A stretch of DNA of 64,000 nucleotides from Gemmatimonadota bacterium (GTDB lineage Bacteria > Gemmatimonadota > Gemmatimonadetes > Gemmatimonadales > GWC2-71-9): contig PNAE01000007.1 in NCBI GenBank assembly GCA_003169895.1, positions 564,967-628,966 on the forward strand, in the 5' to 3' direction. The notes under the pieces were generated by a model. That model saw nothing but the letters and a program-made list of their open reading frames with translations. It did no database searches and was not told where the DNA came from. Positions 36,381 through 44,140 of this stretch are shown one piece after another. The stretch's first letter is position 1. Each line of letters starts with the position of its first letter. A program made the translations under genes and the position numbers.

Positions 36381-38096
36381 TCAGCGTCGTGCGCGGGCAA
36401 AGGCCACGAAGCCCGTCACGTCGCGGCAATTGAGAACCGCGCTCGGTCCGAGTCCTCCCTTCCGAGCGATGCCGACGCCGTACTCGACGTTATCCAGTCC
36501 GGCGATATTGTGCGCATCGGCGCCGATCGAAATCATCACGCCGCGCTCGCGCGCAGTGGCCAGCACGCGCCAGTCGAGATCAAGGCGATGCGGATCGGCG
36601 TTGATCTCCATCGCCACGCCGGTCGCCGCCGCCCGCGCGAGGACCCGGTCGAGATCGATCGAGTAGGCATCGCGTGACAGCAGGAGCCTTCCAGTCGGGT
36701 GCCCGACGATGGTCAGGTACGGCGAATCCATCGCCCGGCAGACCCGTTCGGTCATGTCGTCACGGCTGAGGTTGAAGCGTGAGTGAATTGATCCGATGAT
36801 GAAATCGAATCCGGCCAGCACGTCGTCCGGGTAATCGAGGACACCATCCACGAGGATGTCGCTCTCGATGCCCTTGAGGACGCGGAACCCCGACAGCGTG
36901 CCGTTCACGGCGTCAATCTCATCCCATTGGCGCCGGACACCGTCCACCGATAGGCCCCCGGCGTACGCGGCCGCGCGCGAGTGATCGGTAATCCCGGCGT
37001 ACTGATACCCGGCGGCCTGACATACCTTCGCGATCTGCTCGACCGAGTTGCTGCCGTCCGACGCGCTGGTGTGGCAGTGCAGGAAACCTCGCAGGTCGGC
37101 CAGCTCGACCAGCGGTGGCACCGCCCGGACGACCTCGTCCCCGAACTCGCGTAGCTCCGGCGGAATCCACTCCAGGTCGAGCGCGGAGTAGAGCGCCGCC
37201 TCCGTCGGCGTGGCCACAAAGCGGCTGCCCTCCCACAACGCCGCCCCGGCGAGGTTGAACCCCTTGCGGGCCGCATGTGCGGCCAACGCCGCAAGATGCG
37301 CCTCGCTGCCGGTCGCCTGCACCAGCACCGCACCGAAATTCTGCGGCGGCGTCACCACCACCTGAACGCTGCTTCCGCCGGCGAAACGCAATGTCACGCG
37401 ACGCTCGTCGCCGCCGGCGATTTCGTTGACGCCGGGCATCGTGCTCAGTTGCCGGAACACATCTTCCGGCGGTACGTCGGCCACGAGTACGGTCACCAGT
37501 TCGCGCACCACCTCGCAGCGCCGGCGCACTTCGCCAGCGGTGTGCGCCGAAAGAATGTGCGGCAACCGCGCGAACGCTTCCCGGAACGCCTCCGCTTCGT
37601 GTCGCGCGTGGTGCGACAGGCGCCACTGACTCGCCTGACGCAGGAACGCGATGCCCTTGAGGACTTTCTCCGCCGTACGGGCTCCGAAGCGCGGCAGTGC
37701 GGCGAGTCGCCCATCGCGCGCGGCGTCCTCGAGATCGGGCAGCGTGTCGATGCCGAGCGTCTCCTGGATCTGGCGGATCTTGGCGACGCCGAGCCCGGGT
37801 ATGCCGAGCATGTCGACCAGTCCGGCGGGAACCTCGTCCCGCAGTTGTTCGAGAATCCCGGCTCGGCCGGTGGTTACCAGTTCGGTGACGATCTGCAGGA
37901 TCGCGGGCCCGATTCCCTTGGTGTGCGTGAGGGAGCCATCGGCGATGCCGGTTTCGAGGTCGCCCGGAACGCCAAGAATGCTGCGCGCCGCCGCCGTGAA
38001 TGCCCGCACGCGGAACGGATTCTCGCCCTTGAAGTCGAGATAAGCGGCAATCTGCTCGAGCGAGCGCGACACGCCGGTACGGTCCATCATCGGCAT
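36381..38096 (-). CDS. PolX-like protein with PHP domain, polymerase site degenerate
   Basis: 571 residues. N-terminal HhH and 8-kDa-like region (LEQIAAYLDFKGENPFRVRAF; GIGPAILQI), a polymerase-X palm-like domain, then a C-terminal PHP domain. In the palm, the usual catalytic Asp-x-Asp is replaced (RELVTVLVAD where KDLDFII is expected) and the third Asp is Gln (SVQVVV). The PHP site is intact: LHCHTSASDGSNSV, GITDHSRAAAY, FIIGSIHSRF, VGHPTGRLL, EINADPHRLD, GADAHN. So it probably acts as a PHP phosphoesterase or 3'-5' exonuclease in repair, not as a polymerase. Confidence 0.88.
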   Translation of the reverse strand: MPMMDRTGVSRSLEQIAAYLDFKGENPFRVRAFTAAARSILGVPGDLETGIADGSLTHTKGIGPAILQIVTELVTTGRAGILEQLRDEVPAGLVDMLGIPGLGVAKIRQIQETLGIDTLPDLEDAARDGRLAALPRFGARTAEKVLKGIAFLRQASQWRLSHHARHEAEAFREAFARLPHILSAHTAGEVRRRCEVVRELVTVLVADVPPEDVFRQLSTMPGVNEIAGGDERRVTLRFAGGSSVQVVVTPPQNFGAVLVQATGSEAHLAALAAHAARKGFNLAGAALWEGSRFVATPTEAALYSALDLEWIPPELREFGDEVVRAVPPLVELADLRGFLHCHTSASDGSNSVEQIAKVCQAAGYQYAGITDHSRAAAYAGGLSVDGVRRQWDEIDAVNGTLSGFRVLKGIESDILVDGVLDYPDDVLAGFDFIIGSIHSRFNLSRDDMTERVCRAMDSPYLTIVGHPTGRLLLSRDAYSIDLDRVLARAAATGVAMEINADPHRLDLDWRVLATARERGVMISIGADAHNIAGLDNVEYGVGIARKGGLGPSAVLNCRDVTGFVAFARARR

Positions 38097-38749
38097 CAGG
38101 GCAACTCCTCGCCGTTCAGCACGCCCAGCCCGAGCAACAGCAATTCTTCCGGCGCGCTGATCCCATGCAGGCTGGCTGCTTCGCCTCCCGACATGGTCGG
38201 TGCGAACAGCGGCGTGCCATCGGCGCGAGCTACATTGTCCGGCACCGGGCCCTCGATCGCGATCACCGATACACCGGGACGTTCAACGTGCACGCCAAAG
38301 CACGCCACCAACCGCAATCCAGCGTCGGTCGGCACCGCGAACCAGCCGTCGAGTGGTTCAAATGCCGCGTCCTCGGCCAGGCGGCCCCAGATCAGCCGTG
38401 GTGCGATCTGAATGTAGCGAGTCGCGTCAGTCCGGATTCCGGGATGCCGCGTCGCGGGCGCCCGGAATGGGCGGCACAGCACCCGCGTCGCGGCTTCGTC
38501 CAGGTAGCGCGTCCGTTCGCCATCCCGCCAGAACAGGTATGCGGCGTGAACGAGCGCCACGAAGTCGTCCACTGCCTCGCCGAGGCCTTCGTCGGGGCGT
38601 AGCTCTCGCATCAGTTCGAGCGCCGGTGCAGCGAGCAGGAACGTGTTGAGGTCGGATCGCTCGCCCAGTTCGGCGTGGATCGCCGGCAGCTGCTCGGCGC
38701 GAAAGCCGCCAAACAGCAGGTCAAATGGATGCGGCCGTGACGGATTCAT
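38096..38749 (-). CDS. Conserved-looking protein of unknown function
   Basis: 217 residues from ATG 38749, overlapping the hydrolase stop (ATGA) and ending in TGATG with PolX. Soluble, no signal peptide. Segments such as FDLLFGGFRAEQLPAIHAEL, AYLFWRDGERTRYLDEAAT and RYIQIAPRLIWGRL show a regular alpha/beta pattern. No motif known to me. Tight coupling on both sides suggests a shared unit with PolX/PHP and the hydrolase. Confidence 0.7.
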   Translation of the reverse strand: MNPSRPHPFDLLFGGFRAEQLPAIHAELGERSDLNTFLLAAPALELMRELRPDEGLGEAVDDFVALVHAAYLFWRDGERTRYLDEAATRVLCRPFRAPATRHPGIRTDATRYIQIAPRLIWGRLAEDAAFEPLDGWFAVPTDAGLRLVACFGVHVERPGVSVIAIEGPVPDNVARADGTPLFAPTMSGGEAASLHGISAPEELLLLGLGVLNGEELP

Positions 38750-39549
38750 GCGCGTGGCAGAAAGGGGTCGAGCGCACCAACGAACGCGTCCGGGGCTTCG
38801 ACATAGGGAACGTGCCCGCATTCCGCGAGCACCTGCAACGGTGCCCGCAGCGCGTCCGCGGTCGCGCGCGCGCTGGACAGCGGTATCGGATCGTCGTCAC
38901 CGTGGACCACGACGGCAGGCACGTTCAGGTGACCCAGCTCCGGCCGGATGTCAAAGTCATCACCGAGCGAATCCCAGACCGCCTGCTGGGTACGTCCGGT
39001 AATGCGAAACGGCGTCAGCTCGTGCGCCCGATGTGGATCATGGAAGTATCCAGCAACCGCGAGTTCGAACAACCGCCGGTTGTAGCTCGCCATATCGCCG
39101 GACCGGAGTCCGCTGGCCTGGAGCGCGGCGCGCGCGGTGACCAGTTCCGGAATCGCATTGCGGCGCGCGAGGTTCTGCTCGAAGACAAGTCGCTCGCGCC
39201 GGGCCGCGGGGGCCGGTGACACCAGCGCGAGCGATGCGACCCGGCCTGGATAGGTGATTGCGAACAGCATCGCCAGCAGCGCACCCCAGGAATACCCGCA
39301 GAGATGCAGCTGCCGCATCCCCCAGATGTCCCGCAAGGCCTCCAGATCATCGACGTGCTCGCGCCAGCCGACCGGTACGTCGCGGCCAACGGGCGAGCGC
39401 CCACCGCCGCGCTGGTCGTAATAAATCAGGGTACGGTTGTGCGCCAGACGGTCGAACCCGGGCAGCAGATAGTCATGATGTGCGCCCGGGCCACCGTGCA
39501 GTACCACGACGTCGGGCCCGTGGCCGCTGCGATGCTCGTACAGCTCCAC
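38746..39549 (-). CDS. Alpha/beta hydrolase, proline iminopeptidase-like
   Basis: 267 residues from GTG 39549. Core marks of the proline iminopeptidase branch: VVLHGGPGAHHDYLLP oxyanion loop, IYYDQRGGGRS, and nucleophile Ser87 in LCGYSWGALLA. The acid is in VHGDDDPIPL and the His in ECGHVPYVEAPD. No signal peptide. Cleaves N-terminal Pro or acts on a small ester/amide; substrate unknown. Overlaps the next gene as ATGA. Confidence 0.9.
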   Translation of the reverse strand: MELYEHRSGHGPDVVVLHGGPGAHHDYLLPGFDRLAHNRTLIYYDQRGGGRSPVGRDVPVGWREHVDDLEALRDIWGMRQLHLCGYSWGALLAMLFAITYPGRVASLALVSPAPAARRERLVFEQNLARRNAIPELVTARAALQASGLRSGDMASYNRRLFELAVAGYFHDPHRAHELTPFRITGRTQQAVWDSLGDDFDIRPELGHLNVPAVVVHGDDDPIPLSSARATADALRAPLQVLAECGHVPYVEAPDAFVGALDPFLPRA

Positions 39550-39566
39550 GCCACGGACGCTCCGAA

Positions 39567-40022
39567 TCAGAGCAGCACCGCCAGCGCATCGGCAATCTGC
39601 CGTACCGCGCGCTCTTCGTCGGTGGTGAATGGATCGGACACGTCGGAGTCAACGTCGATCTGGCCGAGAATGTGGCTGCCGCGCCGGATCAGGACGACGA
39701 GTTCCGAGCGCGTGAATACGTTGCAGGCGATGTAGTTCTGCACCGCGCGCACGTCGCCTACGTTCTGGTCGTCGCCAGTAGCGACGGCGGTACCGCAGAC
39801 TCCGCGGCCCACCGCGATCCGTGTATGCTCGGTCTCGCGGCCACTGAACGCTTCGAGCACCAACTCATCTCCGCGAAGCATGTAGACGTATACCGAGGTG
39901 TACGGCGGTCCGGCGTCATGGATCAGATGCGTCGCGAGCGCGAGCAGCTGCTGTCTCGAATTCCCGTGATTGAACGCGGCACGCAGCCGGGTCACGATCT
40001 TGTCGCTGTCGAGGATGGACAT
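39567..40022 (-). CDS. GAF-domain protein, free methionine-R-sulfoxide reductase-like
   Basis: 151 residues from ATG 40022, with AAAGGA about 8 bases upstream. A single GAF domain. Two Cys 24 residues apart, Cys76 (VGRGVCGTAV) and Cys100 (QNYIACNVFTRSELVV), match the spacing of the catalytic pair of E. coli fRMsr, which reduces free Met-R-sulfoxide. The third fRMsr Cys is absent (His66 at that place). It could be a reductase with two Cys or a sensor. Antisense overlap with the upstream ECF-S gene is minimal. Confidence 0.78.
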   Translation of the reverse strand: MSILDSDKIVTRLRAAFNHGNSRQQLLALATHLIHDAGPPYTSVYVYMLRGDELVLEAFSGRETEHTRIAVGRGVCGTAVATGDDQNVGDVRAVQNYIACNVFTRSELVVLIRRGSHILGQIDVDSDVSDPFTTDEERAVRQIADALAVLL

Positions 40023-40071
40023 CCCGCAATCCTTTGGCCTGAGCAGGTACATTCTACCGACCCCGACACCG

Positions 40072-40659
40072 GTGAACCACTACTTGCGCATCTCGCCACG
40101 TCTGTTCGCGCTGGTTCCTGCCGCCGTGGCGATCAACCTGGTGATGGGTGCCATCGTCAAGGAGCTGTCGCTGCCGGTGTATCTCGACACCGTCGGGACG
40201 GTGCTCGTGGCGGTCCTGGTCGGTTTCGGGGGCGGAGCGCTCGTCGGCACGATCAGCCAGCTGCTCATCGGATTGCTCACGGGCTATCAGTCCCTGCCCT
40301 TCGTGGTAATCCAGTGGTTGCTGGCGCTGCTGGTCGCGGCAGCGACCCGGCGGGGCGGTTTCGCATCCGTGTGGCGAACCGTCGCATGGGGCGTTGCGTG
40401 CGGACTCTGCTGCGGCGCCGCCTCGGCGGTGATTGCGTACCTGCTGTTCCGCGGCGCGACCGGCGGCGGCGTGGTCTGGGTGACGGCGGCGTTGCGGGTG
40501 GTCGGATTGCCGCTGCCGGTCGCCGTGGCCATCGGATCAGGCACCACGGATGTGCTCGACAAAGGCATCGTCATCGTGGCCGTGGGCACGCTGTTGCGGG
40601 CCCTTCCGAGGCGGATACTGGGTCGCTTTCCGCTCGCTGCCCGCGCCGCCGCGCAATGA
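40072..40659 (+). CDS. ECF transporter substrate-specific (S) component
   Basis: 195 residues from GTG 40072; about six membrane helices, rich in Gly and Ala (PRLFALVPAAVAINLVMGAIV; DTVGTVLVAVLVGFGGGALVG, then a helix with GTISQLLIGLLTGY). This is the layout of S components that bind vitamins or metal ions. The substrate cannot be told. Followed with ATGA overlap by the T component and then the fused ATPase, so a complete group-II-like or group-I ECF transporter is encoded. A TTG at 40084 is an alternative start. Confidence 0.78.
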   Translation: MNHYLRISPRLFALVPAAVAINLVMGAIVKELSLPVYLDTVGTVLVAVLVGFGGGALVGTISQLLIGLLTGYQSLPFVVIQWLLALLVAAATRRGGFASVWRTVAWGVACGLCCGAASAVIAYLLFRGATGGGVVWVTAALRVVGLPLPVAVAIGSGTTDVLDKGIVIVAVGTLLRALPRRILGRFPLAARAAAQ

Positions 40660-41387
40660 CGCTGGCCCGGCGGGCGCATCCGTTTACCAGCGGAACCGTC
40701 ACGCTCGCCCTGATCGCGCTCGCGCTGGTGTTATCGTCGACCCGCCAGACTGCCGCGCTCTACATCGCCACCATCGTCATTGCATTGTCGACCGGGGCGG
40801 GACGTGGTGTGCGCACCGGCCTCGTCACCGTGGCACCGATTTGGGTGCTGCTGTTTCTGCTGCAAGGCGTTCTTGGTGACGGTGCCCGCATCGCGGCGCC
40901 GTGGGGTGGCACCCTTTCAGGGCCAGGCCTGCACTGGGCCTTGTCGCAGGGAACCAGGCTGGCGGTCATCGCGACGGCATCGCTCGCCTTTGCGAGCAGC
41001 TTTGATCCTCATCGCTTCCTGCAGGCGGCCATTGCGCGGCGCTGGTCGTTCGGCGCCGCATTCCTGTTGGTAGCCACGCTTGACGCCGCCGACCGGCTGG
41101 GCGAGCAGGCGCGTCAGCTGCGCGAAGCGCAGCGCGCCCGCGGCCTGCATGTCACGGGGTCACTCCGGACGCGCGCCGGCGCCCTTCCCGCACTGGTATT
41201 CCCGCTGCTGCTCGCGTCGATGACCGAGGCAGACGACCGCGCGCTGGCGCTGGAGACGCGCGGGCTGATGCTCCGCGGCCCGCGTACCGCCACCGATCCC
41301 CCACACGATACCGCGCCCGACCGGATCGTGCGGTGGCTCGCATTCGTCGCGGTGCTCGCTGGCGTCATCTGGCGAGTGCGCAGCTGA
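40656..41387 (+). CDS. ecfT: ECF transporter transmembrane (T) component
   Basis: 243 residues. Four to five membrane helices (LALIALALVLSST; LYIATIVIALSTGAG; VAPIWVLLFLLQGVLG; VATASLAFASSF region). The coupling helices carry the two Ala-Arg-Gly motifs: REAQRARGLHV and ALETRGLML (the second reads TRG). These bind the ATPase grooves. ATGA overlap upstream with S and TGATG overlap downstream with the ATPase. Confidence 0.88.
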   Translation: MTLARRAHPFTSGTVTLALIALALVLSSTRQTAALYIATIVIALSTGAGRGVRTGLVTVAPIWVLLFLLQGVLGDGARIAAPWGGTLSGPGLHWALSQGTRLAVIATASLAFASSFDPHRFLQAAIARRWSFGAAFLLVATLDAADRLGEQARQLREAQRARGLHVTGSLRTRAGALPALVFPLLLASMTEADDRALALETRGLMLRGPRTATDPPHDTAPDRIVRWLAFVAVLAGVIWRVRS

Positions 41388-43063
41388 TGTGGTTCAGGAC
41401 GCACGCGCTGCGGGTGCGGTATCCGGCGCAGGAACGCTGGGCGGTTGACGGTGTTGACGTTGAGATCCGACCGGGCATGGTGACCTGGCTCAGCGGTGCG
41501 CTGGGGAGCGGAACCAGCACGCTCCTTCTCGCGCTGGCGGGTTTGGCTCCGCGGCTCACGGGAGGTAAGCGCGAAGGTGACGTGATGGCCGACGATGACG
41601 ACAGCGCCACGCTTGCTCCATTGCGGTCCGGGATCGCCTACCTCGGGCCCTCACCGGCGCTGCAGCTCAGCGGCATTGCGGAAACCGTACGCGACGAGAT
41701 CGCCGTGGGCCCGATGAATCTGGGCGAGCCGCGTGAGAAGATTGCCGCCGCCACCGACCGCGCGATCGGTCGCCTGCGGCTCGCGGACCTCGCTGACCGC
41801 CCGCCGGGCGCGCTCTCCAGCGGAGAAACCCAACGGGTGCTGCTGGCGGCACTGCTGGCCGCCAGGCCGCGCGCCTGGTTGCTTGACGAACCATTTTCCG
41901 CGTTGGATCAGGCCGCCACCGTGCAAGTGCAAGGCCTGTTGCGCGAGTTGGCACGCGACGGCGCGACGGTAATTGTCTCCTGCGATGACGCTGACATCAT
42001 GCTCGACGTCGCCGATCGCTTGATCGTGATGCGGGCCGGACGGATCGCGCTCGATGGCAATCCGCGCGAGCTGCTCGCCGGCAACGAAATCATCGCGACC
42101 GGCGCCAGCACCACCGATGCCGCCGTGTTGGCGCACGATGCCGGGCTCGCCGTGCCACGTCCGTTGACGCGGGAGCAGCTGGTCCAAATCGTCCTTTCCA
42201 CATGGCACTCAGGACTCGCGCCGAGGACGCGATCCGCGGCCGGTGCACATGCGACTCCGTTTTCAACGTCGGGTTCAGCTTCGGCGGTACGGATGACCGA
42301 CGTCGCGTTTGCCTATCCCCATGGCCCGGAAGTGCTCCACGGCGTCAGTCTCGATATCCAGGCCGGCGAGGCGGTCGGGGTCTTCGGGGCCAACGGCGCC
42401 GGCAAGTCGACGTTGCTCCGATTGGCGATGGCGCTCGAGCACCCCGCGATGGGTACAGTCGCCACTCTCGGCCGGGACACTGCGCGGTGCCACCCCGAGG
42501 ATTTCGCACCACACGCCGGGTTCCTGTTCCAGCAACCAGAGCGTCAGCTCTTCGCAACGTCGGTTCGGGCCGAATGTGCTTTCGCCCCGCGCCTCGCCGG
42601 CTGGAGCGAACCCCGGGTGCGGGAGGCGGTGATCGCCACGTTAGACCTGCTGGGACTTGCCGATACTGCCGATGAGCACCCCTATGACCTGCCATTGCCG
42701 CGGCGGCGGCTGCTCGCGCTGGCTACGATCCTCACGGCCGATCCTGAGCTCCTCCTGCTCGACGAACCGACGGCCGGGCTGGATTTCGCTTCACGCGAAC
42801 GCGTTATCGGCGTCATTCGTGAATGGACCCGGCGCGGCAGGACGGTGGTGGCCATCACGCACGATGCGGTCTTCGCTCACGAGGCGTTGCAGCGCGGGGT
42901 GGTGGTGGATCATGGCCGCGTCGTTCAGGACGGTCCAATGCGGGACGTCATCGATGACGACCGCATGCTGCGGCCGGCGGCATTGGCAGTTGCACTGGCA
43001 CTGGGACTCGCGCCGGGCAGCGACCGCCGGGCGGAGGTGGCCGGCATCCTACGGTCACACTAA
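41387..43063 (+). CDS. Fused ECF transporter ATPase with one degenerate site
   Basis: 558 residues, two ABC domains in one chain. NBD1: Walker A is SGALGSGTSTLL with Thr43 in place of the Lys; Q-loop Gln missing (YLGPSP); signature LSSGE (143-147) intact; Walker B LLDEPF intact; switch His replaced by Asp200. NBD2: Walker A GANGAGKST (Lys340), Q-loop FLFQQPERQLF, Walker B LLLDEPTAGLD and His492 intact, but the signature is LPLPRR. Thus one composite site (NBD2 Walker + NBD1 signature) is complete and the other is degenerate on both faces. Powers the S and T components. Confidence 0.92.
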   Translation: MWFRTHALRVRYPAQERWAVDGVDVEIRPGMVTWLSGALGSGTSTLLLALAGLAPRLTGGKREGDVMADDDDSATLAPLRSGIAYLGPSPALQLSGIAETVRDEIAVGPMNLGEPREKIAAATDRAIGRLRLADLADRPPGALSSGETQRVLLAALLAARPRAWLLDEPFSALDQAATVQVQGLLRELARDGATVIVSCDDADIMLDVADRLIVMRAGRIALDGNPRELLAGNEIIATGASTTDAAVLAHDAGLAVPRPLTREQLVQIVLSTWHSGLAPRTRSAAGAHATPFSTSGSASAVRMTDVAFAYPHGPEVLHGVSLDIQAGEAVGVFGANGAGKSTLLRLAMALEHPAMGTVATLGRDTARCHPEDFAPHAGFLFQQPERQLFATSVRAECAFAPRLAGWSEPRVREAVIATLDLLGLADTADEHPYDLPLPRRRLLALATILTADPELLLLDEPTAGLDFASRERVIGVIREWTRRGRTVVAITHDAVFAHEALQRGVVVDHGRVVQDGPMRDVIDDDRMLRPAALAVALALGLAPGSDRRAEVAGILRSH

Positions 43064-43078
43064 AGATGGAGGGACCCG

Positions 43079-44140
43079 ATGGCCGTACCAGTAGCCGCAC
43101 TCTTCGCAGCGGCGATCTATCAGGTCCGCTCCTCACTTTCGGACGCAGAGGAATTGGACCACACCGTCAGCCTGCTGATCTGGGCGGCCACTGATGATGG
43201 CGCCGTCAGCTTTGAGGTCTTCGGCGACGACCTGCGGATCAACGGCACACCGCTCTCGCTCGAAGCGCCCGGCACGGCGGTGATCCGGCATGCGTTGGTG
43301 GACCATCATACCGCGCGTCTGGCGCTGCCGCCGGCGCTTTCGGCGAGACAATGGCGAGCCGTCGTCGAACTGTATGCCTCGGCGCCTGGCCTCTATGGCT
43401 CGGTAGACGATCTTCGCGACGCACTCCGGTTCAACGTCCCGGATGCCGTCGTGTCTGCCACCAGCGGCTCGGCCGCCGAAGGGGACCTTCGCCAGTCATT
43501 GTTCGAGCTCCCCGGGTTGCGGGGCAGCTCGGCGACGCTCGACCCGGCACCCACCATGGATCCGCATGATGCGATGCTCACCGAGCTCACCGCGCGTCTC
43601 GACCCGTTGCTGCAGGCCGCGGAGACCGCGCGAGCCCAGGCAGACTACCATGCATTGGCAGATACGTTGTTGCAGATTCACGACTTGGCGCAGGTCAACG
43701 ACGGCGAACTGCGGGCCATCGTGATACGGGAGCGGCGGCGCGTCGTGCCACAGGACGTGCTGGACACCATGGCGCGTCTGATTCCGAAGCCCGCCTCCCC
43801 CACCATCATCGCGCGCGTCCTTGGCACCCTGGGGCACGACGGGGCCGCGGCACTCCTCAGTGCGCTGAACGGTGCGCCGGGGCCGCAGGAGCGGCGCGCG
43901 TACATCGACGCACTCGTCGCCTGTCGCGATTGCGACCAGACGATCGTCGAAGCCCTGAGTAACGAGCGCGCCGAACTTGTTCGCGACGCCGCAGAAGTCG
44001 TCGGCCGCAAGCGATTGGTGCAGGCGGTACCCCTCCTTGCCCATCTGCTTCGCCATGCCAAGGTGGACGTCCGAACGACCGCGTGGCATGCTCTGGAAAT
44101 GATCGGCACACCGGAAGCGCTGCGAGCCCTTCGCAAGTAG
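43079..44140 (+). CDS. HEAT-repeat protein
   Basis: 353 residues from ATG 43079 behind a clear GGAGG (8 bases upstream). The C-terminal third has alpha-helical HEAT-like repeats (ASPTIIARVLGTLGHDGAAALL; ELVRDAAEVVGRKRLVQAVPLL; VRTTAWHALEMIGTPEALRAL). The N-terminal part looks like an independent alpha/beta domain, and a linker with many Ala/Leu is in between. HEAT proteins are scaffolds. Follows the ECF ATPase by 15 bases; function unknown. Confidence 0.8.
   Translation: MAVPVAALFAAAIYQVRSSLSDAEELDHTVSLLIWAATDDGAVSFEVFGDDLRINGTPLSLEAPGTAVIRHALVDHHTARLALPPALSARQWRAVVELYASAPGLYGSVDDLRDALRFNVPDAVVSATSGSAAEGDLRQSLFELPGLRGSSATLDPAPTMDPHDAMLTELTARLDPLLQAAETARAQADYHALADTLLQIHDLAQVNDGELRAIVIRERRRVVPQDVLDTMARLIPKPASPTIIARVLGTLGHDGAAALLSALNGAPGPQERRAYIDALVACRDCDQTIVEALSNERAELVRDAAEVVGRKRLVQAVPLLAHLLRHAKVDVRTTAWHALEMIGTPEALRALRK

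Follow-up and report, generated by a model that had tools for sequence, protein, structure and literature searches.

An ECF transporter operon with the gene order S-T-AA' lies on the forward (+) strand of the window, that is, the whole stretch of 64,000 nucleotides that was analysed. It consists of an ECF S component gene (40015..40659, start codon inferred), an EcfT gene of the CbiQ family (40656..41387; PF02361 at 38.4 bits with a cut-off of 25) and, as the last gene, a fused ECF ATPase gene (41387..43063) encoding 558 aa as NBD1, linker and NBD2. The EcfT gene overlaps the S component gene, and the ATG of the ATPase gene at 41387 overlaps the EcfT stop. PF00005 was matched twice in the fused ATPase by Pfam, which bears out the initial annotation of this gene as a fused ECF ATPase pair. 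The best specific NCBIfam models were TIGR04521 and TIGR04520 (ECF_ATPase_2 and ECF_ATPase_1, respectively), and the scores for TIGR04520 and TIGR04521 (259.4 and 277.9 bits) were below the respective equivalog cut-offs (315 and 330).

The S component was matched to NF045596 (ECF_S_CD3073) with 85.7 bits (E 2.8e-24), under the curated cut-off of 180, and by sequence is a distant homologue of the CD3073 family, below the equivalog level. Its homology to CD3073-type S components was seen by pairwise and family-model comparison; a search of the plasmid records with the window S component gave no match at 1e-3. Two Arg motifs, QRARGL and ETRGL, are retained in EcfT, and two Arg-containing motifs in T couple to the NBDs (PMC3246461). 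A second EcfT was looked for in the source genome (98% complete) and none was found, so the window EcfT is the only one; partnering with another ECF module of the genome was rejected for the lack of a second EcfT. Because the ATPase, the sole EcfT and the S component are encoded in overlapping genes, the locus is read as a self-contained S-T-AA' ECF operon, and the genes supply what an ECF-type importer comprises: EcfT, an S component, two A-type NBDs and the two T Arg motifs. Nothing scoring above shuffled sequence was obtained in the promoter scan.

The ATP-site motifs were assigned by alignment. In NBD1, the Walker A is GALGSGTST (41495..41521), with Thr43 (codon 41513-41515) in place of Lys, the Q-loop region YLGPSPALQ (41639..41665) has a non-Gln residue (Pro88 in the alignment) and the switch His is replaced by Asp200 (41984..41986), while the signature LSSGE (41813..41827) and the Walker B LLDEP (Asp167-Glu168) are intact. 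In NBD2, the Walker A GANGAGKST (42386..42412), the Q-loop FLFQQPERQ with Gln382 (42530..42532), the Walker B LLLDEP with the catalytic Glu460 (42764..42766) and the switch THD with His492 (42860..42862) are all intact, and the former signature reads LPLPR (42689..42703) within the motif (Y)DLPxPxR(R/K). Apart from the intact NBD1 Walker B, these losses and retentions, including LPLPR(R) for the NBD2 signature, are those that the initial annotation had listed. When the two domains are paired head to tail, every motif defect would map to one composite site (site 1: NBD1 P-loop facing the NBD2 ex-signature) and the other (site 2) would be fully consensus. The only predicted complete site is the NBD2 P-loop with the NBD1 signature, as had been proposed, and a homodimer of NBD1 or of NBD2 would contain no complete site. 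The earlier description of site 1 as "fully degenerate" holds for the Lys, the Gln, the His and the signature, and it is slightly too strong because the NBD1 Walker B is intact.

A structure of the dimer, suggested in the initial annotation as a check, was predicted with AlphaFold2 from an alignment of ten two-domain rows (pLDDT 84, pTM 0.61), and a single-sequence AlphaFold2 model (pLDDT 36.8) was set aside. Over both domains, the model was superposed on 8wdb_D, a fused DppD with bound ATP (469 residues, Z 28.0, rmsd 4.4 A), and the relative placement of the NBDs is to be read with moderate confidence only at this pTM and rmsd. Modelled NBD2 alone was matched to CbiO 5x40_A (Z 32.4) and to the closed ATP-bound EcfA2 8bms_B (Z 30.9), and modelled NBD1 to EcfA-A' 4hlu_C (Z 27.7). 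The model thus resembles fused ATP-bound NBD dimers and is consistent with, though not proof of, the head-to-tail geometry. P-glycoproteins dominated the matches in PDB sequence searches, from which no motif comparison was obtained.

For the comparison of orthologues, 288 genomes of Gemmatimonadales were scanned after a scan of the family. NBD1 matches with E < 1e-70 were obtained in 36 genomes of the window's family (f1) and in 7 from another family (f3), and the next NBD1 match after these 43 orthologues in the order scan was at 1e-55. The motif table was made from the 43 NBD1s and 43 NBD2s of these genomes. At site 1, the Walker A Lys was found in 0/43 (Thr 18, Ala 15, Cys 9, Ser 1), and the same held for the Q-loop Gln, the switch His and an LSGGx signature in NBD2; in a single NBD1 row (G039) a Gln stands one column off the Q-loop position. 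The NBD1 Walker B Glu was retained in 35/43; of the other eight, the 7 f3 genomes have Asp and one genome has Asn. At site 2, the NBD2 Lys, Gln, Asp, Glu and His and the NBD1 LS(G/S)GE were present in 43/43; the LSSGE spelling is peculiar to the window genome, and LSGGE is found in the other 42. In place of the NBD2 signature stands (Y)DLPxPxR(R/K), which is itself conserved: Arg occurs in 43/43, Asp in 42/43 and Leu in 40/43. Such a motif pattern across 43 orthologous pairs is far beyond chance.

A pseudogene, local decay or a sequencing error in one strain might be suspected from the absence of several NBD1 catalytic residues. An intact NBD1 Lys and NBD2 signature in orthologues, which had been set beforehand as the refuting outcome for the asymmetry, was found in 0/43 and the defects in 43/43. 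The same losses in 43 genomes of two families, with open frames and with site 2 undamaged throughout, leave decay with scarcely any credibility, and local decay or sequencing error is refuted by the orthologues. Mean pairwise identities of NBD1 and NBD2 were 0.51 and 0.50 in f1 and 0.69 and 0.69 in f3, respectively, and dN/dS in the genus was 0.17-0.28 for both halves (dS 1.0-1.8, near saturation). Both NBDs are under purifying selection, and NBD1 is not drifting, since its identity equals that of NBD2 and dN/dS is equally low in both halves. The one-sided motor looks like design rather than decay, because the same losses recur in the 43 genomes and partly in distant relatives.

NBD1 and NBD2 are fused in the whole genus of the window except for one genome (G081); outside the genus, in f1 as in f3, they are encoded by separate adjacent genes. 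In another genome (G038) the two halves are on different contigs. The asymmetry is taken to be independent of the fusion, because relatives outside the genus mostly have two genes. In G081 (L010:4797-4860), the stop of the first of two ATPase genes cleanly overlaps a possible GTG start, and fusion and splitting thus vary even inside one genus. The asymmetry as a by-product of the fusion was rejected, as most relatives are split and G081 is split cleanly.

A fused pair of an intermediate kind was found in a third family of the order (f2; L130-L135, L084), in seven genomes: the NBD1 Lys is kept, the NBD1 Gln and His are lost and the NBD2 signature reads GDL(A/V)PQxQR. Comparison pairs outside Gemmatimonadota were taken from plasmid records, and they form a graded series. 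Both sites are consensus in Enterococcus faecalis, Monoglobus and Streptomyces cavourensis. In Natrononativus, Haloarcula, Vibrio, Enterococcus faecium and Rhodococcus, a single residue of the NBD2 signature is altered (LSxGQ/E) and the rest is intact; in Enterococcus raffinosus, the NBD2 signature and nothing else is replaced. The signature and the NBD1 His are lost in Paracoccus and likewise in Ligilactobacillus; the signature, Gln and His, sometimes with the Walker B, are lost in haloarchaea, Rubrobacter and Halorussus. The Walker A Lys is additionally lost in Thermomicrobium and the f1 and f3 Gemmatimonadota. Clear defects in the distant pairs were confined to the same composite site (site 1). 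Judged from these sequences, a milder same-sided asymmetry is widespread among paired ECF ATPases, and for this reason the window-type pair is regarded as the most extreme case in a graded series.

An altered NBD2 signature was found at all the compared loci with CD3073-type S components. These S components were identified by the family model in the window, f1, f2, f3, Haladaptatus, E. raffinosus and Streptomyces, by BLAST in Natrinema and Halomarina, and, in Paracoccus and Ligilactobacillus, only through resemblance to the S component of E. raffinosus. The CD3073-type ECF transporters of haloarchaea, E. raffinosus, Streptomyces, Paracoccus and Ligilactobacillus (L139-L143, L160, L295, L297) share with the window a homologous S component and the same-sided ATPase asymmetry; unlike in the window, their erosion is partial and the Walker A Lys is kept in all, and in E. 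raffinosus and the CD3073-type Streptomyces NBD1 is fully intact.

A maximum-likelihood tree was constructed from NBD1 plus NBD2 (491 columns). The three Gemmatimonadota families f1, f3 and f2 were grouped with Rubrobacter and Halorussus (100) and with Thermomicrobium (87). Haloarchaea, Streptomyces and E. raffinosus fell into a clade of their own (96), whose connection to the Gemmatimonadota clade was weak (42%). From the placement of f1/f3 relative to Thermomicrobium, the Walker A Lys was probably lost twice, once in each. Whether a whole lineage of ECF importers, from archaea to Gemmatimonadota, moved stepwise to a one-ATP motor, by loss of the NBD2 signature, then of the NBD1 Gln and His, and then of the Lys at least twice (in f1/f3 and, on a weaker branch, in Thermomicrobium), is an evenly balanced question.

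With high probability, the fused ATPase powers an importer of the ECF type (type III ABC), working as a head-to-tail NBD1:NBD2 dimer with a single hydrolytic site. Site 2, where the NBD1 LSSGE faces the Walker A, Q-loop, Walker B and His of NBD2, would bind and hydrolyse ATP, and its turnover would close and open the dimer, move EcfT and thereby tip the S component. Site 1, in which the NBD1 P-loop without Lys, Gln and His faces LPLPR, would hydrolyse no ATP and would serve as a hinge, either fixed or independent of ATP, or would at most retain a nucleotide without turnover. One ATP rather than two would then be spent per cycle, because site 1 would not hydrolyse. For the window protein we infer the dimer geometry, hydrolysis solely at site 2 and the one-ATP stoichiometry.

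Some nucleotide chemistry may persist at site 1, because the NBD1 Walker B Asp-Glu is kept in most orthologues. A special case of the one-site motor would be that site 1 binds ATP tightly without hydrolysis, as an essential glue that does not turn over. The retention of the Walker B Asp-Glu in 35/43 speaks for it, as does the ATP that remains non-hydrolysed in the degenerate site of exporters (PMC7756269); the loss of the Lys, Gln, His and facing signature strips most phosphate contacts and speaks against it, an objection weakened in turn by Pdr5, which functions despite a Walker A Lys-to-Cys replacement (PMC7756269). On balance this version is a tenable reading with somewhat less than an even chance. 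It is improbable that NBD1 has instead taken on a regulatory or structural role and that the module no longer transports, being a sensor or a non-transport ATPase. NBD1 would indeed be unable to act as a normal P-loop ATPase, and the S-component fold also occurs in receptors (PMC11109136), but the LSGGE-type signature required by NBD2 is retained by NBD1 in 43/43, EcfT has both Arg motifs, and the S and T genes are in the same operon.

Among known systems, the group II EcfA-EcfA'-T (ECF-FolT2, 8bms/5d3m) and CbiMQO (5x40) share with the window the S, T and two A units, the NBD fold and the pair of Arg motifs through which T couples to the NBDs. ATP is bound at both sites of ECF-FolT2, which both engage LSGGQ (PMC10368641), whereas site 1 of the window is without Lys, Gln, His and signature. 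The view in the initial annotation that known EcfA pairs have two working sites stands for the solved group II pairs, which bind ATP in both (PMC10368641); that no degenerate pair is known holds only as far as the literature searches go, as no degenerate ATP site in ECF transporters was found in the open literature searched, with most subscription papers outside that scope.

Pdr5, TAP, CFTR and ABCG5/G8 likewise pair a consensus composite site with a degenerate one (PMC7756269), so the exporter precedent cited earlier holds, though the importers RbsA and NupO are asymmetric as well (PMC11466899). These exporters differ from the window in that their membrane domains are fused, and they are not ECF transporters and have no S component. 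Like site 1, Pdr5 is without the Walker A Lys, the switch His and the facing signature (PMC7756269); its Walker B Glu is lost too, unlike in most window orthologues. Pdr5 is the closest counterpart in degree of degeneration, and its activity was abolished when all four degenerate motifs were made canonical (PMC7756269). RbsA/NupO resemble the window as importers with a fused NBD pair, one degenerate site and a lost Walker A Lys (PMC11466899); they differ in that the second NBD, and not the first as in the window, is the one without the Lys, and in being type II importers with a binding protein, not ECF. Degenerate sites are thus already known in exporters and in RbsA/NupO, and the ECF case is new in the literature searched.

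On the ATP cost per cycle of ECF transporters and the joint or alternating use of their sites, the authors of PMC10368641 only propose consecutive ATP binding and non-synchronous hydrolysis; a natural module with one eroded site bears on both questions. A module with an eroded site, together with its intermediate relatives, permits comparison beyond what mutation alone allows. If the assignment is true, type III importers join exporters and type II importers as carriers of the design with one consensus site; if the stepwise reading of the lineage is true, ECF transport and the expulsion of the S component need only one hydrolytic site.

Several minor observations were made at the loci compared. 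A neighbourhood conserved across the family (window 36381-40052 and 43079-44140) contains a PolX-like gene, an alpha/beta hydrolase gene, a GAF protein gene divergent from the ECF operon and a HEAT-repeat gene directly downstream of the operon, and the neighbourhoods in sister genera (L096, L097, L100) add M28 (PDZ), M42 and M20 peptidases and an OPT transporter. The fused ECF ATPases of the Haladaptatus and Halomarina plasmids (L139-L141) have NBD1 replacements of the Q-loop Gln by Glu, of the Walker B Asp-Glu by Gln-Gln and of the switch His by Gln, and they adjoin annotated nucleoside hydrolase genes, a lead on the substrate of the CD3073-type S component. The hints on the substrate conflict, as the neighbouring genes encode nucleoside hydrolases in haloarchaea and peptidases in Gemmatimonadota. 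In Ligilactobacillus salivarius pSF118-44 (L297:5816-6681), the NBD1 coding sequence of a CD3073-type ECF operon is divided between two overlapping frames, and the other operon genes are open. On a Thermomicrobium roseum plasmid (L144:2674-5385), a single 903-residue protein combines the two ECF NBDs with an EcfT domain (PF02361 at 650-853), and in this A-A-T fusion the NBD1 Walker A Lys is replaced by Leu, with an asymmetric site.
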